Positions 39,760 to 49,569 of a stretch of 64,000 nt of DNA are shown here, piece after piece. The stretch covers positions 138,874 through 202,873 of the forward strand of contig CAUJHZ010000025.1 in the NCBI GenBank assembly GCA_963205185.1, read 5' to 3'. The notes under the pieces are model-generated. The model searched no databases, was not told the DNA's origin, and saw only the letters and a list, made by a program, of their open reading frames with translations. The first letter of the stretch is position 1, and each line of letters starts with the position of its first letter. The DNA is from Planctomycetota bacterium (lineage in GTDB: Bacteria > Planctomycetota > Phycisphaerae > Phycisphaerales > UBA5793). Both the position numbers and the translations under genes were made by a program.

Positions 39760-40689
39760 TTGCTTCGCTACCGACTCATCTTCGGCTCGCTGTTCATCGC
39801 TCTGATCGGGCTCGTCTTCTGGGCCGACGACCGCCTCGACCGCGTTGCGCTGAGCGGGTTCTGGAGTGAATTGTTCAATGACCGCCGGTACCTGCCGTCG
39901 GGCCTGGCGCTGTTTGCGCTGTGCCTGGCGATCGTGCCGATCGCGGCGTGGGAACTGACGCAGATTCTCAGGGCCAACGACATCCGGGCCCGGACCTGGC
40001 TGAACTGCACGGCCGCCGAACTCGGCTTGATCATCCACTTCGCCATGCCCTACACCGCAGACGCCGCGCAGGCGGTGGCCATTGTGGGCACGATCCTGGT
40101 GGCCATGTTCATCGGCTCGCTTGTGTACCACAGCCGCGAGCGCCGCGTCGAGGGCGTGGTGGCGGCGGCGGGCGGCACGATGTTCGCCATGATCTATCTC
40201 GGGTTTATGTTCGGGTTCCTCATCGCGATCCGGCGCTGGGAGTCGGCGTGGGTAGTCGCCGCCATCATCGTGATCACCAAGTGCTGCGACATCGGCGCGT
40301 ACTTCACCGGCCGGGCCATCGGCCGCCACAAACTCATCCCGTGGCTCAGCCCCGGCAAGACCTGGGAAGGCCTGGCGGGCGGAGTGGCGCTGTCGGTGGT
40401 TGCCGCGTCGCTGCTCGCCTGGTGGGGCCGATCGATCGAGCCCGTGCTCGTCGGCAGCGGCCCGGCGTACGACTTCGCTTTCGGTCCGATCGAGGCGGCC
40501 CTGGGAGGGGCGGCGCTGGCGCTGGTGGGACAGGCCGGCGATCTCATCGCCAGCCTGCTCAAGCGCGATGCTGGAATCAAGGACTCTTCGAGCCTGCTGC
40601 CGGGCTTCGGTGGCGTGCTCGATGTCATCGACTCGCCCCTTCTTGCCGGGCCGGTGGCCTACTGGCTGCTGGTCCTGGCCAGCCGCTGA
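39760..40689 (+). CDS. cdsA: Phosphatidate cytidylyltransferase
   Basis: About 309 residues, a polytopic membrane enzyme that makes CDP-diacylglycerol from phosphatidate and CTP. About eight hydrophobic helices are visible. The CdsA signature near the C terminus is intact: LLKRDAGIKDSSSLLPGFGGVLDVIDSPLL, with the KR/KD pair and two acidic residues; the usual PGHGG histidine is Phe (PGFGG). The first codon is uncertain: TTG at 39754 or 39760, with the latter favoured by the upstream TATCCT spacing. Confidence 0.92.
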   Translation: MLRYRLIFGSLFIALIGLVFWADDRLDRVALSGFWSELFNDRRYLPSGLALFALCLAIVPIAAWELTQILRANDIRARTWLNCTAAELGLIIHFAMPYTADAAQAVAIVGTILVAMFIGSLVYHSRERRVEGVVAAAGGTMFAMIYLGFMFGFLIAIRRWESAWVVAAIIVITKCCDIGAYFTGRAIGRHKLIPWLSPGKTWEGLAGGVALSVVAASLLAWWGRSIEPVLVGSGPAYDFAFGPIEAALGGAALALVGQAGDLIASLLKRDAGIKDSSSLLPGFGGVLDVIDSPLLAGPVAYWLLVLASR

Positions 40690-42300: not shown

Positions 42301-42639
42301 GCGCGCGGCCGCTCCGCCGCACCGGCCGGGAGCGGCGGCGGCGAAAATCCGCAAAAAGCGCGCGCTTTGCGCCCAGACCGGCCCGCTGGTCCATCCGGAA
42401 ACCTGTGCGACTAAGGACTTGCATCCCAGCCTTGAAGGTGGTAGCCTTTCGTCCGCAAACGGGGTGGGTGCTTCGGTCGCAGCGCCGTCTCGTGTTGAGG
42501 AGAAGAGTTGGGGATCACGACCCGGGTCAGGGTCGCGATCGGTTTTCGCCGTTGCCTCGCAGCAAAGAGTTCGGTCCGCGTCCAGTCGCTTTCGACGGGC
42601 GAGCCTGACGGGACCACCACTGAAGGGACATCAGCCACT
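42301..42639 (+). other. Gene-free stretch and leader before the secretin gene
   Basis: 339 bases without a convincing gene. It has a hairpin at 42513-42540 (GATCACGACCC / GGGTCGCGATC with one A-C mismatch) followed by GGTTTT about 100 bases before the secretin ATG, which could be an attenuator. Immediately before the ATG is a weak GAAGGGA ribosome site. No clear promoter was found. Confidence 0.4.
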
Positions 42640-45600
42640 ATGAATCAGCAGAGCACCCCCCACTGGCTTCGTCTGTGCACGCTTGGCCTTTCGATGTTCA
42701 TCGGGTCCACCACGCTGGCGGCGCCGCCCCAGCCGACCGCCGATGAACTGTTCACCGAAGGCAGCAACCTGTACCTGCAGGACCGCGTGCTCGAAGCGAG
42801 GGAACTGCTGCTCCGCGTCGATCTCACGCAACTCGAACGCGCCAAGCGCCAACAGTTGCTCGCCACGATCGATGAGATCGACAATCGTCTGCGCCAGATG
42901 CCCGAGTCGGAACTGCGCCTGATGAAGGCGCAGCTCGCGATGTCCAGCCAGGACTACCGCACCGCCACGTCGCACCTCGAAGCCGTCCGCAAACTCGACG
43001 CGGCCTCGGCGGAGCAGAAGTCTCAGGCGGCTGCCTTGCTGGCTGACATCAAGACGTCGCAGGAACAACTCGCGCCGCAGATCACCATGGTGCTGCAGAA
43101 GGCGATGTCCGACTTCGACGCGGGCAACTACGGCCAGGCCAAGGCCGGCCTCAACTTCGTGTACAACTCCGGCGTGCAGCTCGATCTCGATCAGCAGACC
43201 GACTTGAGCCGCTACATCGCCGATCTGACTTCGCTCGAAGCGCAGCGCGGCCGGTTCACCACCCCGGTCGTCAACGTCGGCGTCATGCAGGACCAGCCGC
43301 CCGAAGAGCCCGCGACCGAGCCGCAGGAGCCCGCCGAGCAGCCTGCTGAGGAGCCCGCCCAGGACGACAATCGCACGGATGATCTGATCTACCAGGCGCA
43401 GCAGGCGCAGGCGAAGATCAACCTCGACCAGGCCCAGCAGGCGTACGCCGCCGGCAACTACGCCGCCGCCGAAGAACTCTTCAAGCGCGTGCTCGCCGTG
43501 CAGCCCGACAACGAGGCGGCCAAGCAGGGCCTGCAGAACGCCCAGGACATGCTCAACCAGGGCGGGCCGCTTCGCGACGTAACGGCGACGGCGCAGATTC
43601 AGCACGATCAGTTGATCGCCGAGTTCAACAACCTGATGGAGCAGGCGCGGCAGGCGCTGAACCAGGGCGACTACTCGATGGCCAACAGCCTCGTGACCCA
43701 GGCCAAGATCCGGGTGGACGAGGGCCGGGCCGTGCTCGCCAGCCAGGAGCGCGAAGATCTGCGCAACCGCGCCCTCGATCTGGCCCAGACCATCGAAACC
43801 GCCCGGCGCGAGGCGGAGATTCGCGATATCCAGGAGGCCGCACTCGAGGCCCAACAGGACCAACTGGAACGCCAGCGGCTCATCGAAATGGAGCGCCAGC
43901 AGAAGATCGCCGAGCGCCTGCTTTCGATTCGCAAGCTGCAGGCGGCCCAGCGCTACGACGAAGCGCTGCTCGAAGTCCGCACGCTGCTCTTCGAGGATCC
44001 GGGCAATCCCGCCGGCCTCATCCTCCGCGACACGCTCGAAGACCTGCGCAACCTGCGCCGCTGGGATGAACTCAATCGCGACCAGGCGCTGCGCGCTTCG
44101 ACCAATTCCCTCAACCTGCTCGAATCGACGCTCATCTCTAATGACATCGTCGAGTATCCGCTGGACTGGCCCGCGCTGAGCCTTCGCCGCAGCGACTTTG
44201 CGTACAACGACAGCGAGGCTGACCGCCGGGTCTACAACGCCCTGGCGCGGCAGCGGGCCAACGTCGATTTCCGCGGCACGCCGGTCGGTGATGTCATCGA
44301 CTGGATCGAGCAGGTGGCCAGCATCAACGTGGACGTCGATTGGAAGTCGCTCGAGCAGAATTTCATCGACCGCAACATGCCCATCAACCTGCGCCTCAAC
44401 GACCAGGTGAACCTGCAGGTGGTGCTCGAGCGCACGCTGGCGCAGCTCGGCGACGCCTCCACCCAGCCGCGTTACGACGTGCGCGACGGCATTCTGACGA
44501 TCTCGACGAAGGAAAAACTCGCCGCCAACCCGATCACGCACCTCTACCCAATCGGCGATCTGCTCGTCAACGTCCCCCACTTCGACAACGCGAAGAGTTT
44601 CGATCTCGAATCCAAACTCGAAAAGCGAAACCAGCGCGAACAGGGCCTCAAGGCGGCTCTGTTCGGATCGGACGAAGTCGAGAAGTACGACCGCGGCCGG
44701 GACAAGCGCGAGGAACTGCTCGAAAAGATCCGCGAAGTCATCACGACCACGGTGGACAGCGGTTCGTGGCAGATCAACGGCGGCGACGTCGGCACGATCC
44801 AGTCCATCGACTCGAACCTGATCATCAAGACGACCGCCTCGAATCACCGGCAGATTTCCGATCTGCTCACCAAACTCCGCGAGATCCGGTCGATCCAGAT
44901 CAACGTCGATTCGCGCTTCCTCATCGTCAACGAAGACTACTTCGAGCAGGTCGGCATCGACCTGGACATCTACTTCGGCGGCGATGAGTACAATCGCGCT
45001 TCCCGACTCGATCCGAATCTGCTGCCTCGGGACCTGTTCGTCAATCCGTATACAAACCAGCTCACCGACACGTTCCAGCGGCAATACACGTCACAATTCC
45101 AACTGATCCCCGACACGACATTCACGAACGATCGGCGCGACCTGCTCTTCGAGCTGCCGACGCCCGGCGTCATAAACGCCGACCGCCGAACCTGGTCGCC
45201 CTCGCAGATCGGTAACAACACGCTGAACATCGCCCGCAGCATCTTCAATCCCGGCGGCGACAGCATGGCGGCGGACATCATCGGCGGCAACCCGGCGTTC
45301 ACCTACGGCATCTCGTTCCTCAACGACCTACAGGTGGATCTGCTCATCCAGGCGACCCAGGCCGACCGCCGCAACATCCAGCTGACCTCGCCGAAACTCA
45401 CGTTCTTCAACGGCCAGCGGGCCTTCGTGCAGGTAACCACCAGCCGCTTCTTCGTCTCCGACCTGCAGCCGGTGGTCGGCGACTCGTCGGCGGGCCTTGA
45501 TCCGGACCTGACGGCCGCCAACGAAGGCGTGGTGCTCGACGTCGAGGGAACCGTGTCGGCGGACCGTCGCTACGTGACGCTGACGGTACTCACGAGCCTT

Positions 45601-45999
45601 GCCGACATCGTGGACATCCAGAACACCTCGATTCCAATCGTGGTCGGCGGGCAGGTGCTCGACTCGGGCGATCCCAACGACGTGCTGTCGCAGACGGGTC
45701 AGTTGCAGTCGCCCATCACGCAGGTGTCGGCGGTCAACACCACCGTCAGCGTGCCTGATCGCGGCACGATTCTGCTGGGCGGACAGTCGATCCGCAACGA
45801 CATCCAGGTGGAAACCGGCGTGCCGGTGCTGTCCAAGATTCCGATCATCAACCGCTTCTTCACCAACCGCATCGACTCGGTGGAGGAGAAGACGCTGCTC
45901 ATCCTGCTCAAGCCGACGATCATCATTCAGCAGGAGAACGAAGAACTGCTCTATCCCGGCCTGCAGGATCAGCTCGGCGGGTTCAGGAACTCGTTCTGA
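42640..45999 (+). CDS. Type II/IV secretion secretin with N-terminal TPR domain
   Basis: 1119 residues. A signal peptide (LCTLGLSMFIGSTTLAAPP) is followed by a long alpha-helical TPR-like and Ala/Gln/Glu-rich region with a Pro/Glu linker (EEPATEPQEPAEQPAEEPAQ). The secretin part starts near 530 (GTPVGDVIDWIEQVASINVDVD). The outer-membrane gate domain ends in VPDRGTILLGGQSIRNDIQ and VPVLSKIPIINRFFTNR, the standard secretin signature. It should form the outer-membrane pore for type II secretion or type IV pili. Its partner ATPase may be the GspE-like gene at 47773. The long N terminus replaces usual N0/N1 domains in part. Confidence 0.93.
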   Translation: MNQQSTPHWLRLCTLGLSMFIGSTTLAAPPQPTADELFTEGSNLYLQDRVLEARELLLRVDLTQLERAKRQQLLATIDEIDNRLRQMPESELRLMKAQLAMSSQDYRTATSHLEAVRKLDAASAEQKSQAAALLADIKTSQEQLAPQITMVLQKAMSDFDAGNYGQAKAGLNFVYNSGVQLDLDQQTDLSRYIADLTSLEAQRGRFTTPVVNVGVMQDQPPEEPATEPQEPAEQPAEEPAQDDNRTDDLIYQAQQAQAKINLDQAQQAYAAGNYAAAEELFKRVLAVQPDNEAAKQGLQNAQDMLNQGGPLRDVTATAQIQHDQLIAEFNNLMEQARQALNQGDYSMANSLVTQAKIRVDEGRAVLASQEREDLRNRALDLAQTIETARREAEIRDIQEAALEAQQDQLERQRLIEMERQQKIAERLLSIRKLQAAQRYDEALLEVRTLLFEDPGNPAGLILRDTLEDLRNLRRWDELNRDQALRASTNSLNLLESTLISNDIVEYPLDWPALSLRRSDFAYNDSEADRRVYNALARQRANVDFRGTPVGDVIDWIEQVASINVDVDWKSLEQNFIDRNMPINLRLNDQVNLQVVLERTLAQLGDASTQPRYDVRDGILTISTKEKLAANPITHLYPIGDLLVNVPHFDNAKSFDLESKLEKRNQREQGLKAALFGSDEVEKYDRGRDKREELLEKIREVITTTVDSGSWQINGGDVGTIQSIDSNLIIKTTASNHRQISDLLTKLREIRSIQINVDSRFLIVNEDYFEQVGIDLDIYFGGDEYNRASRLDPNLLPRDLFVNPYTNQLTDTFQRQYTSQFQLIPDTTFTNDRRDLLFELPTPGVINADRRTWSPSQIGNNTLNIARSIFNPGGDSMAADIIGGNPAFTYGISFLNDLQVDLLIQATQADRRNIQLTSPKLTFFNGQRAFVQVTTSRFFVSDLQPVVGDSSAGLDPDLTAANEGVVLDVEGTVSADRRYVTLTVLTSLADIVDIQNTSIPIVVGGQVLDSGDPNDVLSQTGQLQSPITQVSAVNTTVSVPDRGTILLGGQSIRNDIQVETGVPVLSKIPIINRFFTNRIDSVEEKTLLILLKPTIIIQQENEELLYPGLQDQLGGFRNSF

Positions 46000-46055: not shown

Positions 46056-46144
46056 CATTGGGCCCACGCTTTCGCGCCGCGTCCTGACTACGCTTTGCCG
46101 CCGGCCCTATGCCCGAGCCCCGCAACGACAGGAGCACCCGTCCG

Positions 46145-46504
46145 ATGAGCGCACCGGAATCGCGTTTACGCATCAGGAAACAGGACCAGATCACCATCGT
46201 CGAGTTCGTCGATCGGAACATCCTCGACGAGGGCAACATTGCGCAGATCGGCGAGGAAATCGGCGCCATCGTCAACGAGGATCCGAATCCCAAACTGCTC
46301 ATCAGTTTCGCGAACGTCGATCACCTGTCCTCGGCCGCGCTGGGCGCGCTCATCACTATCAACAGCAAGATCAAGAGCAAAGACGGGCAGTTGCGCCTCG
46401 CGGACATCAACGATCAGATCATCGAGGTGTTCCGGATCACGCGCCTCGATCGGTTGTTCCAGATCCAGCCTACGGCGCGCGAAGCCCTGGCGAGTTTCAG
46501 CTGA
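46145..46504 (+). CDS. STAS-domain anti-anti-sigma factor
   Basis: About 119 residues, one STAS domain of the SpoIIAA/RsbV type. The conserved strand-turn FANVDHLSSAALGAL has the Ser expected to be phosphorylated. It would sequester an anti-sigma kinase and so free a sigma factor. The ATG at 46145 has AGGAG 10 bases upstream. The RsbW-like kinase gene follows after 48 bases, so the pair probably forms a partner-switching module. No sigma factor gene is nearby. Confidence 0.92.
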   Translation: MSAPESRLRIRKQDQITIVEFVDRNILDEGNIAQIGEEIGAIVNEDPNPKLLISFANVDHLSSAALGALITINSKIKSKDGQLRLADINDQIIEVFRITRLDRLFQIQPTAREALASFS

Positions 46505-46552: not shown

Positions 46553-47002
46553 ATGGCCAGCACGCAGCAGCAAGGCGCAGAGGGGCGCGATCCACGCGGC
46601 GCCCAGGTAATTACCGTCGGCCATGAGCGGGCGGAGACCGAGAGCGTCTGCGAACGCGTGCTGGAGGCCATGACCACCGCCGGCTACCCGGAGGCGGCTC
46701 GATTCGCGTTGCGGCTGGCGTGGGAAGAAGCGATCAGCAACGCGATACACCACGGCAATCGCAATCGCCCCGATGGTCGAATCGAGGTGGCCTTCCACGT
46801 CGATCCGCAGCGCGTGTACCTGCGCATCACCGATGAAGGTCAGGGGTTCGACCCGCAAGCGGTGATCGACCCCACGCTGGATGAAAACCTCGAATGCACC
46901 AGCGGCCGGGGACTGCTGCTCATGCGCGCCTACATGACGCGCGTGGAGTACGAACCGCCGGGCAGCACGGTGCGGCTGGTGCTCGAGAATCCGCAAGCCT
47001 GA
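46553..47002 (+). CDS. RsbW-like anti-sigma Ser/Thr kinase
   Basis: 149 residues, HATPase_c_2 fold. N box WEEAISNAIHHGNRNRPDG, G1 ITDEGQGFDPQ and G2 GRGLLLMRAYMTRVEY are in order, typical of SpoIIAB/RsbW kinases that phosphorylate an STAS antagonist and bind a sigma factor. A 48-base gap separates it from the STAS gene; AGAGAGG lies upstream. A role controlling envelope or secretion genes is only an inference from the adjacent secretin. Confidence 0.93.
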   Translation: MASTQQQGAEGRDPRGAQVITVGHERAETESVCERVLEAMTTAGYPEAARFALRLAWEEAISNAIHHGNRNRPDGRIEVAFHVDPQRVYLRITDEGQGFDPQAVIDPTLDENLECTSGRGLLLMRAYMTRVEYEPPGSTVRLVLENPQA

Positions 47003-47011
47003 GCAACGGCT

Positions 47012-47326
47012 TCAGGACTGAATGGAGATGAACTCGGCGACGGACGCCAGATCGGGCGCGATCTGCGGCCGGTACTGGAGTTGCCAGGTGGCGCCGACCT
47101 CGGGGTGGACGAACTTGGGCGGCTGCTGTCGCACGGCCCAGTCGCGCCCGCCGCGCTGGTGCACCTTGGTCGTCCGCTCGCGAGCCAGCCGGGCGTCGTC
47201 GAGGGCTCCCTGAATCCTGCGGTCCATGCGCATGAGCCGGCGGAGGGTGTCCACGTCGTCCGGCCGCGTCGGGGCCTTGGTGATGCTCAGGGTGATCTGC
47301 GATCCGGGCTTCGGTGCGTTGGGCAT
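47012..47326 (-). CDS. Small hypothetical protein
   Basis: About 104 residues from the ATG at 47326; an alternative in-frame start lies upstream. It is basic, with an amphipathic region (DVDTLRRLMRMDRRIQGALDDARLARERTTKVHQR) and a short C-terminal strand segment (WQLQYRPQIAPDLASVAEF). No family recognised. Convergent with the RsbW gene, with 9 bases between stops. Confidence 0.45.
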   Translation of the reverse strand: MPNAPKPGSQITLSITKAPTRPDDVDTLRRLMRMDRRIQGALDDARLARERTTKVHQRGGRDWAVRQQPPKFVHPEVGATWQLQYRPQIAPDLASVAEFISIQS

Positions 47327-47483
47327 GGTCGGGAATCCTGGGCCGGTCATTTCGGGCCAATGCGGGCGTTGATCGTGCGAGACGCGGAGTTTAGCCGCCC
47401 GGGCGGACGGGTCCACAGCCGGAGCCCCCGGCGGGGCCGGAAGGCACAAAATCGGCTGTCTGCATCAATCTTGGGGGATTCAG

Positions 47484-47513
47484 TTGACAATCAGGGGTTT
47501 TTTGAGTTATGCT
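47484..47513 (+). promoter_or_regulatory. Consensus sigma-70 promoter of the intergenic transcript
   Basis: TTGACA, an 18-base spacer, TATGCT. It reads away from the minus-strand small gene into a gene-free stretch. This is the strongest promoter I see in the window. Confidence 0.85.
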
Positions 47514-47519
47514 TGAGGC

Positions 47520-47722
47520 GTCAGGCGTCCGGTGATTGGGCGGATCAGCCGATGCGGCACCCGAGTCCCGGGTGAGCAGTGGCTGCTTTGCCCCCGAGCT
47601 TGTTCGAATTTCCGCAGCCGTCCGGCCGGTCGGTGCAATGCCTGCCTGCTGAGACACCAAGTGCTGCGGAGTTTCCCTGTGCCCGTCTCGCTGGTGGTAA
47701 AACATCGGCGAGGCGGTTTTTT
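47520..47722 (+). ncRNA. Putative small RNA of about 200 nt
   Basis: A 446-base gap between two minus-strand genes contains a consensus promoter on the plus strand and, about 200 bases on, an intrinsic terminator. The sequence between has several small stem-loops (CACCCG/CGGGTG near 47554, GCAG/CTGC near 47577) and no convincing coding frame. It does not show obvious tmRNA, RNase P, SRP or 6S signatures. It may be a regulatory RNA of unknown class. The ends are approximate. Confidence 0.6.
47683..47722 (+). terminator. Intrinsic terminator of the putative small RNA
   Basis: Eleven-bp stem CCGTCTCGCTG / CGGCGAGGCGG (two G-U pairs) with a 12-base loop, followed by TTTTTT. Confidence 0.8.
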
Positions 47723-47772: not shown

Positions 47773-49569
47773 TTACTCCACGCCGGCGACGCGCTCGACT
47801 TCATCCACCGAAGTGATGCCGTCGGCGACGAGTTGGTAGCCCGCCTGCTGGAGCGTCGTGAACATCGTCAACTGGAGCGCCTCGCGGATGTCGGCGATCG
47901 TCGCTCGCTTGAGGATGATGTCGCGCAATTCGTCGGTCATCACGAGCAGTTCAAACAGCGCCCGCCGGCCGGCGTAGCCCGTCTCAAAGCAGCGCGAGCA
48001 GCCCACGGGGTAGTAGATCTGGCTGACGCCCTCGACGAAGCGCCCCATGCGCAGCGTCTGCTGTGGCGTCGGCCGGCGCTCCGAGCGGCACACCGGGCAC
48101 AGCTGCCGGATGAGCCGCTGGGCCAGAATGAGATTGAGGCTCGATGCCACGAGATACGGCTCAACGCCCAGGTCGAGCAGGCGGAAGATCGTGCCGATCG
48201 AATCCTTGGCGTGCAGGGTCGAGAGCAGCAGGTGTCCGGTCATCGCGGCCTGCATGGCGATGGCGGCGGTCTCCTGATCGCGGACTTCGCCGAGCAGGAT
48301 GACATCCGGATCCTGCCGCAACACCGAGCGCAGCAGCGTGCCGAACGTGTTGCCCTTGTGCTGGTCGATGGGAATCTGCGTTACGCCTTCGAGGTGATAC
48401 TCGACGGGGTCTTCGATGGTGATGACGTTGCGCTGCCGGGCATCGATCTCGCGCAGCACGGCGTAGAGCGTGGTGGTCTTGCCCGAGCCGGTCGGACCGC
48501 AGGCCAGCAGCATGCCGGAATCCTGCCGGCTGATGCGCTTGACTTTCTCCGCCATCCAGCCGGGCAGATTGAGATCGGTGATGAACTGCGGCGCGTTGGC
48601 GAGATCGAGGATGCGCAGAACCAGCTTCTGGCCGAACATCGAGGGAGTGAAACTCACGCGATAGTCGATGCGGCGACCATCGAGGCGGCTGGAAAAGTGC
48701 CCTTCCTGGACGATGAGGCGCTGGGCGATGTCGATGTCGCTGAGCACCTTCACCACGCCAATGAGTTTGGCGGCCATTGCTTTGGGCAGCGTGACGGCAT
48801 CAACCATCGTGCCGTCCACGCGCAGGCGACAGAGGAAGTCGTCCGTGCGCGGCTCGACATGCAGATCGGTCGCGGCGACCTGCTCGGCGGCGAGCAGCAG
48901 CAGGCGCAGCAGATTCACTCCGCCGCGACTGTCGGCCTCGGTCTCTCCCTTGCGGGCCGGCTTGCGCTCGGGCTCGTGATCCGAAGCGCGGAGCGATCGG
49001 CCCGAAGCGCCGATGAACTCGACGTCGCGGCGATCGGCCTCCGGCCGCTGCGCGCTGCGCGCCAGGTCGCGCAGGACGCTCTCGTAGGCGCGGTTGTCCG
49101 CGCCCTCAGGCGGGGCCGCCAGACCGGCGAGCAGCGCGTTGTAGTCGATCTCTTCGCCTCCGCCCAGCATCGCCACCCGCTCCTGCGGCTCGCCGCTGCC
49201 GCTGGGCCGGTGCAACTTCGGCGAGCGGCGGATGCTCTCAATCTCGCGCTCGGCGTCGGGAAGGTCGAGCACTTCGCTCTGCGGATCGACGAAGCGAAAG
49301 CGCGTCTTGCCGATGCGCACGACGTCGCCGCTGCGAAGGACGGCCTGCCGCGTCACCCGTTCGTTCACTTTCGTGCCGTTGCGCGAATCGAGGTCGCGGA
49401 CGACGCACCCTTCCTCGCCCAGTTCGATAACGCAGTGGAAGCGGCTCGCGCGGTCATCGTCGATGGGCACGACGTTGTCGGGGTGCCGGCCGATGGTGAT
49501 CGGACGGCCGTCGAAATTGAGGCGTCGGCCTTCGCCGTCCACATCGATTTCGAGATAAGGCGTCGACAT
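47773..49569 (-). CDS. FHA-fused type II/IV secretion ATPase (GspE/PilB family)
   Basis: 598 residues. An N-terminal FHA domain covers about 1-100 (ITIGRHPDNVVPIDDDRASRFHCVI, LDSRNGTKVNER), then a flexible linker. From about 210 there is a GspE/PilB ATPase with the LRLLLLAAEQVAATDLHVEP N2 region, Walker A GPTGSGKTTTLY near 356, Asp-box VITIEDPVEYHLEGVTQ and Walker B VILLGEVRDQET. The zinc-binding pairs are CPVC and CSRC. It should drive pseudopilus or pilus assembly. FHA at the N terminus suggests phosphothreonine regulation. AGGAG lies about 10 bases before the ATG. Confidence 0.94.
   Translation of the reverse strand: MSTPYLEIDVDGEGRRLNFDGRPITIGRHPDNVVPIDDDRASRFHCVIELGEEGCVVRDLDSRNGTKVNERVTRQAVLRSGDVVRIGKTRFRFVDPQSEVLDLPDAEREIESIRRSPKLHRPSGSGEPQERVAMLGGGEEIDYNALLAGLAAPPEGADNRAYESVLRDLARSAQRPEADRRDVEFIGASGRSLRASDHEPERKPARKGETEADSRGGVNLLRLLLLAAEQVAATDLHVEPRTDDFLCRLRVDGTMVDAVTLPKAMAAKLIGVVKVLSDIDIAQRLIVQEGHFSSRLDGRRIDYRVSFTPSMFGQKLVLRILDLANAPQFITDLNLPGWMAEKVKRISRQDSGMLLACGPTGSGKTTTLYAVLREIDARQRNVITIEDPVEYHLEGVTQIPIDQHKGNTFGTLLRSVLRQDPDVILLGEVRDQETAAIAMQAAMTGHLLLSTLHAKDSIGTIFRLLDLGVEPYLVASSLNLILAQRLIRQLCPVCRSERRPTPQQTLRMGRFVEGVSQIYYPVGCSRCFETGYAGRRALFELLVMTDELRDIILKRATIADIREALQLTMFTTLQQAGYQLVADGITSVDEVERVAGVE

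Follow-up and report, generated by a model that had tools for sequence, protein, structure and literature searches.

Most of what is known about small RNAs comes from a few model groups. The described systems closest to the RNA considered here include 6S RNA, which has a central bubble, the CsrA-titrating RNAs, known examples of which carry many binding sites, and the base-pairing sRNAs with C/U-rich single strands, which form a class. For the whole Planctomycetes-Verrucomicrobia-Chlamydiae group, eight Rfam sRNA families are given in the table of a 2022 review (PMC9029176), and the Rhodopirellula-1 motif figures in the account of Weinberg 2010 (PMC2864571) as a candidate structured RNA of Planctomycetes and Proteobacteria with no Rfam accession. 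A search of the literature returned no account of the RNA described below and no transcriptome study of noncoding RNA in the Phycisphaerae. This RNA is encoded within a stretch of 64,000 nucleotides from a member of the Phycisphaerales, referred to here as the window, and almost certainly represents a real structured RNA family that is undescribed in Rfam 15 and in the literature searched, with the possible exception of Rhodopirellula-1.

The locus and the predicted RNA

The features of the locus are given below, with the evidence for each in brackets; f1 is the window's own family, and f2 and f4 are further families of the order.

46109-46504, + strand: STAS protein (Pfam search)
46553-47002, + strand: HATPase_c_2 protein (Pfam search)
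47012-47449, - strand: ORF without a Pfam match, upstream neighbour of the RNA (Pfam search)
47484-47513, + strand: promoter, with -35 TTGACA at 47484-47489, a spacer of 18 and -10 TATGCT at 47508-47513 (consensus scan)
47520-47722, + strand: small RNA gene, about 203 nt (fold z of -4.58, family of 29 strong members, covariation)
47522-47602, + strand: 5' domain, a long hairpin in the minimum-energy fold, predicted only, with fast-varying sequence (fold and genus alignment)
47612-47618, + strand: 5' arm of P1, CCGCAGC (compensatory changes in 3/7 pairs)
47619-47662, + strand: P2 hairpin, loop region GGUGCAAUGCC, together with the internal loop on the 3' side of P1 (folds of all 29 members, consensus fold)
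47663-47669, + strand: 3' arm of P1, GCUGCGG (covariation)
47670-47682, + strand: linker AGUUUCCCUGUGC, mostly unpaired in prediction (alignment and unpaired probability)
47683-47716, + strand: P3 hairpin of 14 bp, which doubles as the terminator stem in the window (scan, and compensatory changes in 10/14 pairs)
47717-47722, + strand: U-run TTTTTT of the intrinsic terminator (kept in 6/6 members of f1, 1/1 of f4 and 2/22 of f2)
47773-49569, - strand: ATPase with FHA and T2SSE domains, downstream neighbour (Pfam search)

The preliminary description had reported the best promoter of the window, TTGACA and TATGCT separated by 18 bases, followed by an intrinsic terminator, and both elements were found. 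The promoter matches the consensus at 10 of 12 positions and is the sole site of at least 10/12 on either strand of the 64 kb; between 46500 and 48700, where 0.3 such sites would be expected from shuffles, it is the only one, and consensus matches of this kind also arise by chance. Terminator-like sites occur 0.9 times in shuffles, so that one alone is unsurprising. The 5' end is predicted at 47520, about 7 nt past the -10 box. From there to 47722 the RNA folds at -104.7 kcal/mol, a value reached by none of 200 dinucleotide shuffles (z of -4.58), and z is -2.98 when the terminator is removed.

ORFs that overlap the stretch arise mechanically (for example, 94 aa on the + strand and 137 aa on the - strand). 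Six frames were compared with G003, a relative 97% identical at the DNA level; the five that cross the RNA were split into two matches, covered in part or gapped, and the sixth lies mainly upstream of the RNA. The earlier statement that no reading frame fits is borne out, and the RNA gene, judged by its sequence, is non-coding, with no protein frame surviving in relatives. The flanking genes are both on the opposite strand, as had been stated, and the one 3' of the RNA converges on it; the FHA domain of this T2SSE-family ATPase is N-terminal. A secretin-domain protein of 1163 aa (42508-45999) is encoded in the same region as the ATPase. The upstream ORF at 47012-47449 (-) is present in all six f1 genomes, with 36% identity in G005.

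Searches for known RNA families

At the gathering score, Rfam 15 gave no matches in the window, and relaxing the search to E values of up to 10 gave chance matches only (DicF, 12.2 bits; SpF59, 13.2 bits). A relaxed search of 14 loci from 12 carrier genomes, including the window's own, found nothing at the RNA. That the RNA is a diverged member of a known family (6S, SRP or tmRNA) is highly improbable: its size and strong promoter resemble those of 6S RNA, but the 6S and SRP models match elsewhere in the same genome. For 6S RNA the match lies at G000:C57:40018-40198 (E 9.1e-7, 41.5 bits), with none in the window, and for SRP RNA at G000:C18:142982-143079, over its cut-off at 49.8 bits; ARAGORN finds no tRNA or tmRNA in the window. 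The likely 6S RNA at 40018-40198 itself scores below the cut-off of 46.4 bits, which only 7 of 61 relatives pass, and the RF00013 model seems poorly tuned for the order Phycisphaerales.

Members and distribution

By blastn, 13 of 61 genomes, that of the window among them, contain the region. The remaining five genomes from its genus or family all match at 97 to 73% identity, with the match in G005 limited to 98 of 261 bases, and a further five genomes of the order match across the terminator end; two more matches, with E values of 0.002 and 0.006, fall mid-region and were left out. The first ten relatives have a common 3' domain that consists of a G+C-rich stem strand, a variable hairpin, the partner strand, UUCCCUGUGC and a second hairpin. 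A first covariance model, built from 11 sequences, was run on 400 genomes of the order and matched 31 of them with an E value of at most 0.01, with the best eight candidates per genome scored, so that misses are possible. Of these matches, 29 are strong (E of at most 6.5e-11) and single-copy, and belong to f1 (six), f4 (one) and f2 (22); the two weak ones, G267 and G022, were dropped, the former keeping UUCCCUGUGCC and a hairpin without P1. A second model found 14 of 397 genomes in the class (11 strong) and 6 of 294 in the phylum (three strong), the genome samples for order, class and phylum overlapping, and all strong matches were again in f1 or f2. Weak covariance matches from the class (G565, G455 and G107), from the phylum (G819, G715 and G800) and from the more sensitive search described below (G035, G006, G026, G015 and G034) were likewise left out of the membership; those in G006 and G015 look by eye like 5S rRNA followed by a terminator.

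An exact-pattern scan of 84,980 species, each represented by a single genome, returned 20 stretches. The record titles of 19 read Planctomycetota, planctomycete, Phycisphaerae, Phycisphaeraceae or Phycisphaerales, and viral contigs lack the pattern. The twentieth record, WYBR01000089.1 (L051), is titled Vicinamibacteraceae bacterium PLA1 and carries the Phycisphaerales RNA; it is exactly as long (23477) as contig G004:C71, from a genome of the window's genus, and its title is probably wrong. As far as tested, the family appears to be restricted to part of the Phycisphaerales and to be patchy within f2. A more sensitive search of 37 genomes of the order that had given no hit yielded five weak matches, none credible among those inspected, and the RNA would thus be dispensable at the scale of the order.

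Thirty non-carrier genomes were searched behind the carbon-nitrogen hydrolase gene that precedes the RNA in f2 and f4 (see below); 23 gave the locus, and no detectable copy was found there. A diverged copy hidden behind this gene was rejected, the unfiltered model search at the 23 loci giving a best E value of only 0.084. Promoter-like sites at this place were inspected in six non-carrier loci, and two of them precede a tRNA-Phe gene. These are two f3 genomes (L121:2375-2447, + strand; L123:1343-1415, - strand), with tRNA-Phe behind the hydrolase gene where f2 and f4 carriers have the RNA.

Conserved structure and covariation

Covariation was assessed on a plain, structure-blind MAFFT alignment of the 29 3' domains. 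In P1 and P3 together, 98.4% of the cells are paired, compared with 33-54% for slid versions; the structure was taken from the same 29 sequences, which favours this percentage, whereas the compensatory counts lie far above both controls. Two-sided changes occur in 13 of 21 pairs (5.1 in shuffles) and in 48 cells (10.5 in shuffles, none of 500 as high), and the compensatory changes fall in three of the seven pairs of P1 and ten of the fourteen of P3. The sequence of P2 varies almost completely and its hairpin still forms in individual folds. All 29 full RNAs fold better than their shuffles (40 each; z from -2.8 to -10.8), and P1 is missing from the full-length minimum-energy fold of G223. A U-run follows P3 in nine members, including all six of f1, and is missing in 20, so that in most f2 members P3 is kept without being a classical terminator. 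In four loci (L033:951-984, - strand; L027; L028; L036), the symmetry of P3 leads the model to match the opposite strand as well.

Between P1 and P3, UCCCUGUGC within the linker is invariant in 29/29 members of the alignment. The ten-base stretch UUCCCUGUGC has a mean unpaired probability of 0.60, against 0.34 for whole RNAs, with a range of 0.15-0.97, and in some members the linker is predicted to be paired (unpaired probability of 0.15 in G209, 0.17 in G227, 0.25 in G003, 0.28 in G005 and 0.29 in G281). The 5' domain of f1 differs from that of f2 and f4 and evolves fast. In f2 and f4, GUUGAG stands 6 or 7 bases past the -10 box in 21 of 23 members, and a 5' hairpin with a changing stem keeps GGGAAGC in its loop region (a script found 17 of 23, with 15 different arm pairs; by eye also in G287, G384 and G221, and imperfectly in G148); the motif is missing in G209 and G227 and reads GGGGAGC in G027. 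A pyrimidine-rich ACUCCUCC just 5' of P1 is also kept in f2 and f4, though not in the window's family; its copies are often paired in prediction (0.02-0.81 unpaired).

A structured small RNA had been proposed from the window alone, and the proposal is supported by covariation in both helices, by a promoter at fixed spacing and by orthologous position. A lack of covariation between relatives had been named as its refutation; the comparison was run and the RNA passed it, with compensatory changes in P1 as well as P3. A promoter and a terminator with merely neutral sequence between them could have been suspected, as such consensus matches occur by chance, but P1 is neither promoter nor terminator and changes by compensation, and the linker is invariant in 29 genomes. 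This reading is scarcely credible and, unless the alignment is wrong, is already refuted by the covariation.

Promoter and gene order

A sigma70-like promoter of at least 8/12 was found in all 29 members and of at least 9/12 in 24, compared with 23% and 4% of shuffled regions, the control being two-base block shuffles; its spacer is 16 in all 23 f2 and f4 members and 18 in all six of f1. In 22 of the 23 f2 and f4 loci, three of which are cut by contig ends, the gene immediately upstream encodes a carbon-nitrogen hydrolase and shares the strand of the RNA, whereas the loci of the window's family have another upstream neighbour, on the opposite strand. Four f1 loci and three of f2 (G148, G160 and G109) have the FHA-T2SSE ATPase gene downstream in convergent orientation, and in G005 it is on the same strand as the RNA; this common neighbour supports the orthology of the f1 and f2 loci. 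A secretion ATPase and a sigma-control pair (STAS and HATPase_c_2) are indeed present beside the RNA, as the preliminary description had pointed out. As a hint to function this neighbourhood did not hold, since 22 of the 23 members outside the window's family follow the hydrolase gene and the neighbours therefore say little about function.

The gene order also bears on a cis-acting element, either a leader or attenuator of the gene that follows or the 3' end of the mRNA that precedes it. The position behind a same-strand hydrolase gene and the missing U-run of most f2 members would fit such an element, but each of the 29 members has its own promoter, no downstream gene is common to all, the window's next gene faces the RNA, and the neighbours change between families, which argues against a cis role. 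This alternative is considered very improbable. A stand-alone structured RNA gene of about 200 nt, presumably transcribed, is by comparison of these loci well supported.

Possible function

Three features of a trans-acting sRNA, namely its own intergenic promoter, the lack of a conserved protein frame and a conserved RNA structure, were found at the level of the sequence. None of 32 genomes had an Hfq match over the cut-off, the single one in G088 falling below it, whereas CsrA was found in all 32 and at two or more places in 30. The CsrA places in the window's genome are C30:35924-36079 and C3:1749-1916. An RNA that titrates CsrA or is controlled by it, through GGA loop motifs, would agree with this distribution, with the GGGAAGC kept in the f2 and f4 hairpin loop region and with a mean of 1.9 ANGGA per member against 0.8 in shuffles. 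Total GGA is however not enriched (4.5 against 4.4), and in the window RNA ANGGA is absent and GGA occurs only twice, compared with the many sites that titrating RNAs carry; three of its four genus relatives also lack ANGGA and the fourth has one. A CsrA sponge was on these counts rejected for the window RNA, and for the family a CsrA-linked role is very unlikely.

Tentative preference is given to a trans-acting, Hfq-independent sRNA that would use the invariant linker to contact target RNA, as suggested by the conservation of this strand, by its accessibility in prediction and by the changing cis neighbours. The RNA would be transcribed from its own sigma70-type promoter and, as no gene downstream on the same strand is conserved, would act in trans. 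P1 and P3 may hold the invariant strand (U)UUCCCUGUGC open for Hfq-independent pairing with target mRNAs at purine-rich stretches, for example in ribosome-binding regions; this is the weakest step. Protein binding or a tertiary contact would explain the invariant linker just as well. The main rival, nearly as likely, is a protein-bound scaffold or housekeeping-type RNA, in which the linker and the edges of P1 and P3 would bind some protein and pairing with mRNA would not be the main job. A promoter at fixed spacing, a single copy, vertical inheritance, the invariant linker and a P3 whose sequence is conserved even in the 20 members lacking the U-run are consistent with such an RNA; it has no known protein partner, and its absence from other genomes of the same order would be unusual for a housekeeping RNA.

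Beyond the preferred trans-acting sRNA, a global RNA regulator of a new, lineage-specific class can be imagined for Phycisphaerales lacking detectable Hfq, in which a rigid two-helix clamp displays the invariant UUCCCUGUGC and part of the family could switch by long-range pairing with the GGGAA of the 5' domain, but this is unlikely. GGGAA is kept in f2 and f4, within the hairpin loop region in most and elsewhere in G209 and G227. A GGGAA-UUCCC pseudoknot is unproven: G023 and G088 change the linker to AAUCCC with no change in the loop, and GGGAA is missing in all five members of the window's genus. A family with clear covariation in planctomycetes lacking detectable Hfq offers a concrete object for studying how RNA regulation works there, and the covariance model now allows its annotation.

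Relation to described systems

With the bacterial SRP RNA (RF00169), the RNA shares the character of a small structured RNA. It resembles 6S RNA (RF00013) in being free-standing, strongly promoted, about 200 nt long and highly folded, but is built of separate hairpins, whereas 6S RNA has a long closing stem with a central bubble. The presence of CsrA, together with the GGA in the conserved hairpin loop region of f2 and f4 members, recalls RNAs of the CsrB/RsmZ type, from which the window RNA departs in its GGA content. The Rhodopirellula-1 motif is likewise a candidate structured RNA reported for planctomycetes; no strong match to the present family was found outside f1, f2 and f4 of the Phycisphaerales. 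In the base-pairing sRNAs, finally, the likeness lies in a predicted unpaired, pyrimidine-rich strand beside a stable hairpin; what distinguishes the present family is that Hfq was not detected and that this strand is an invariant linker between two helices.
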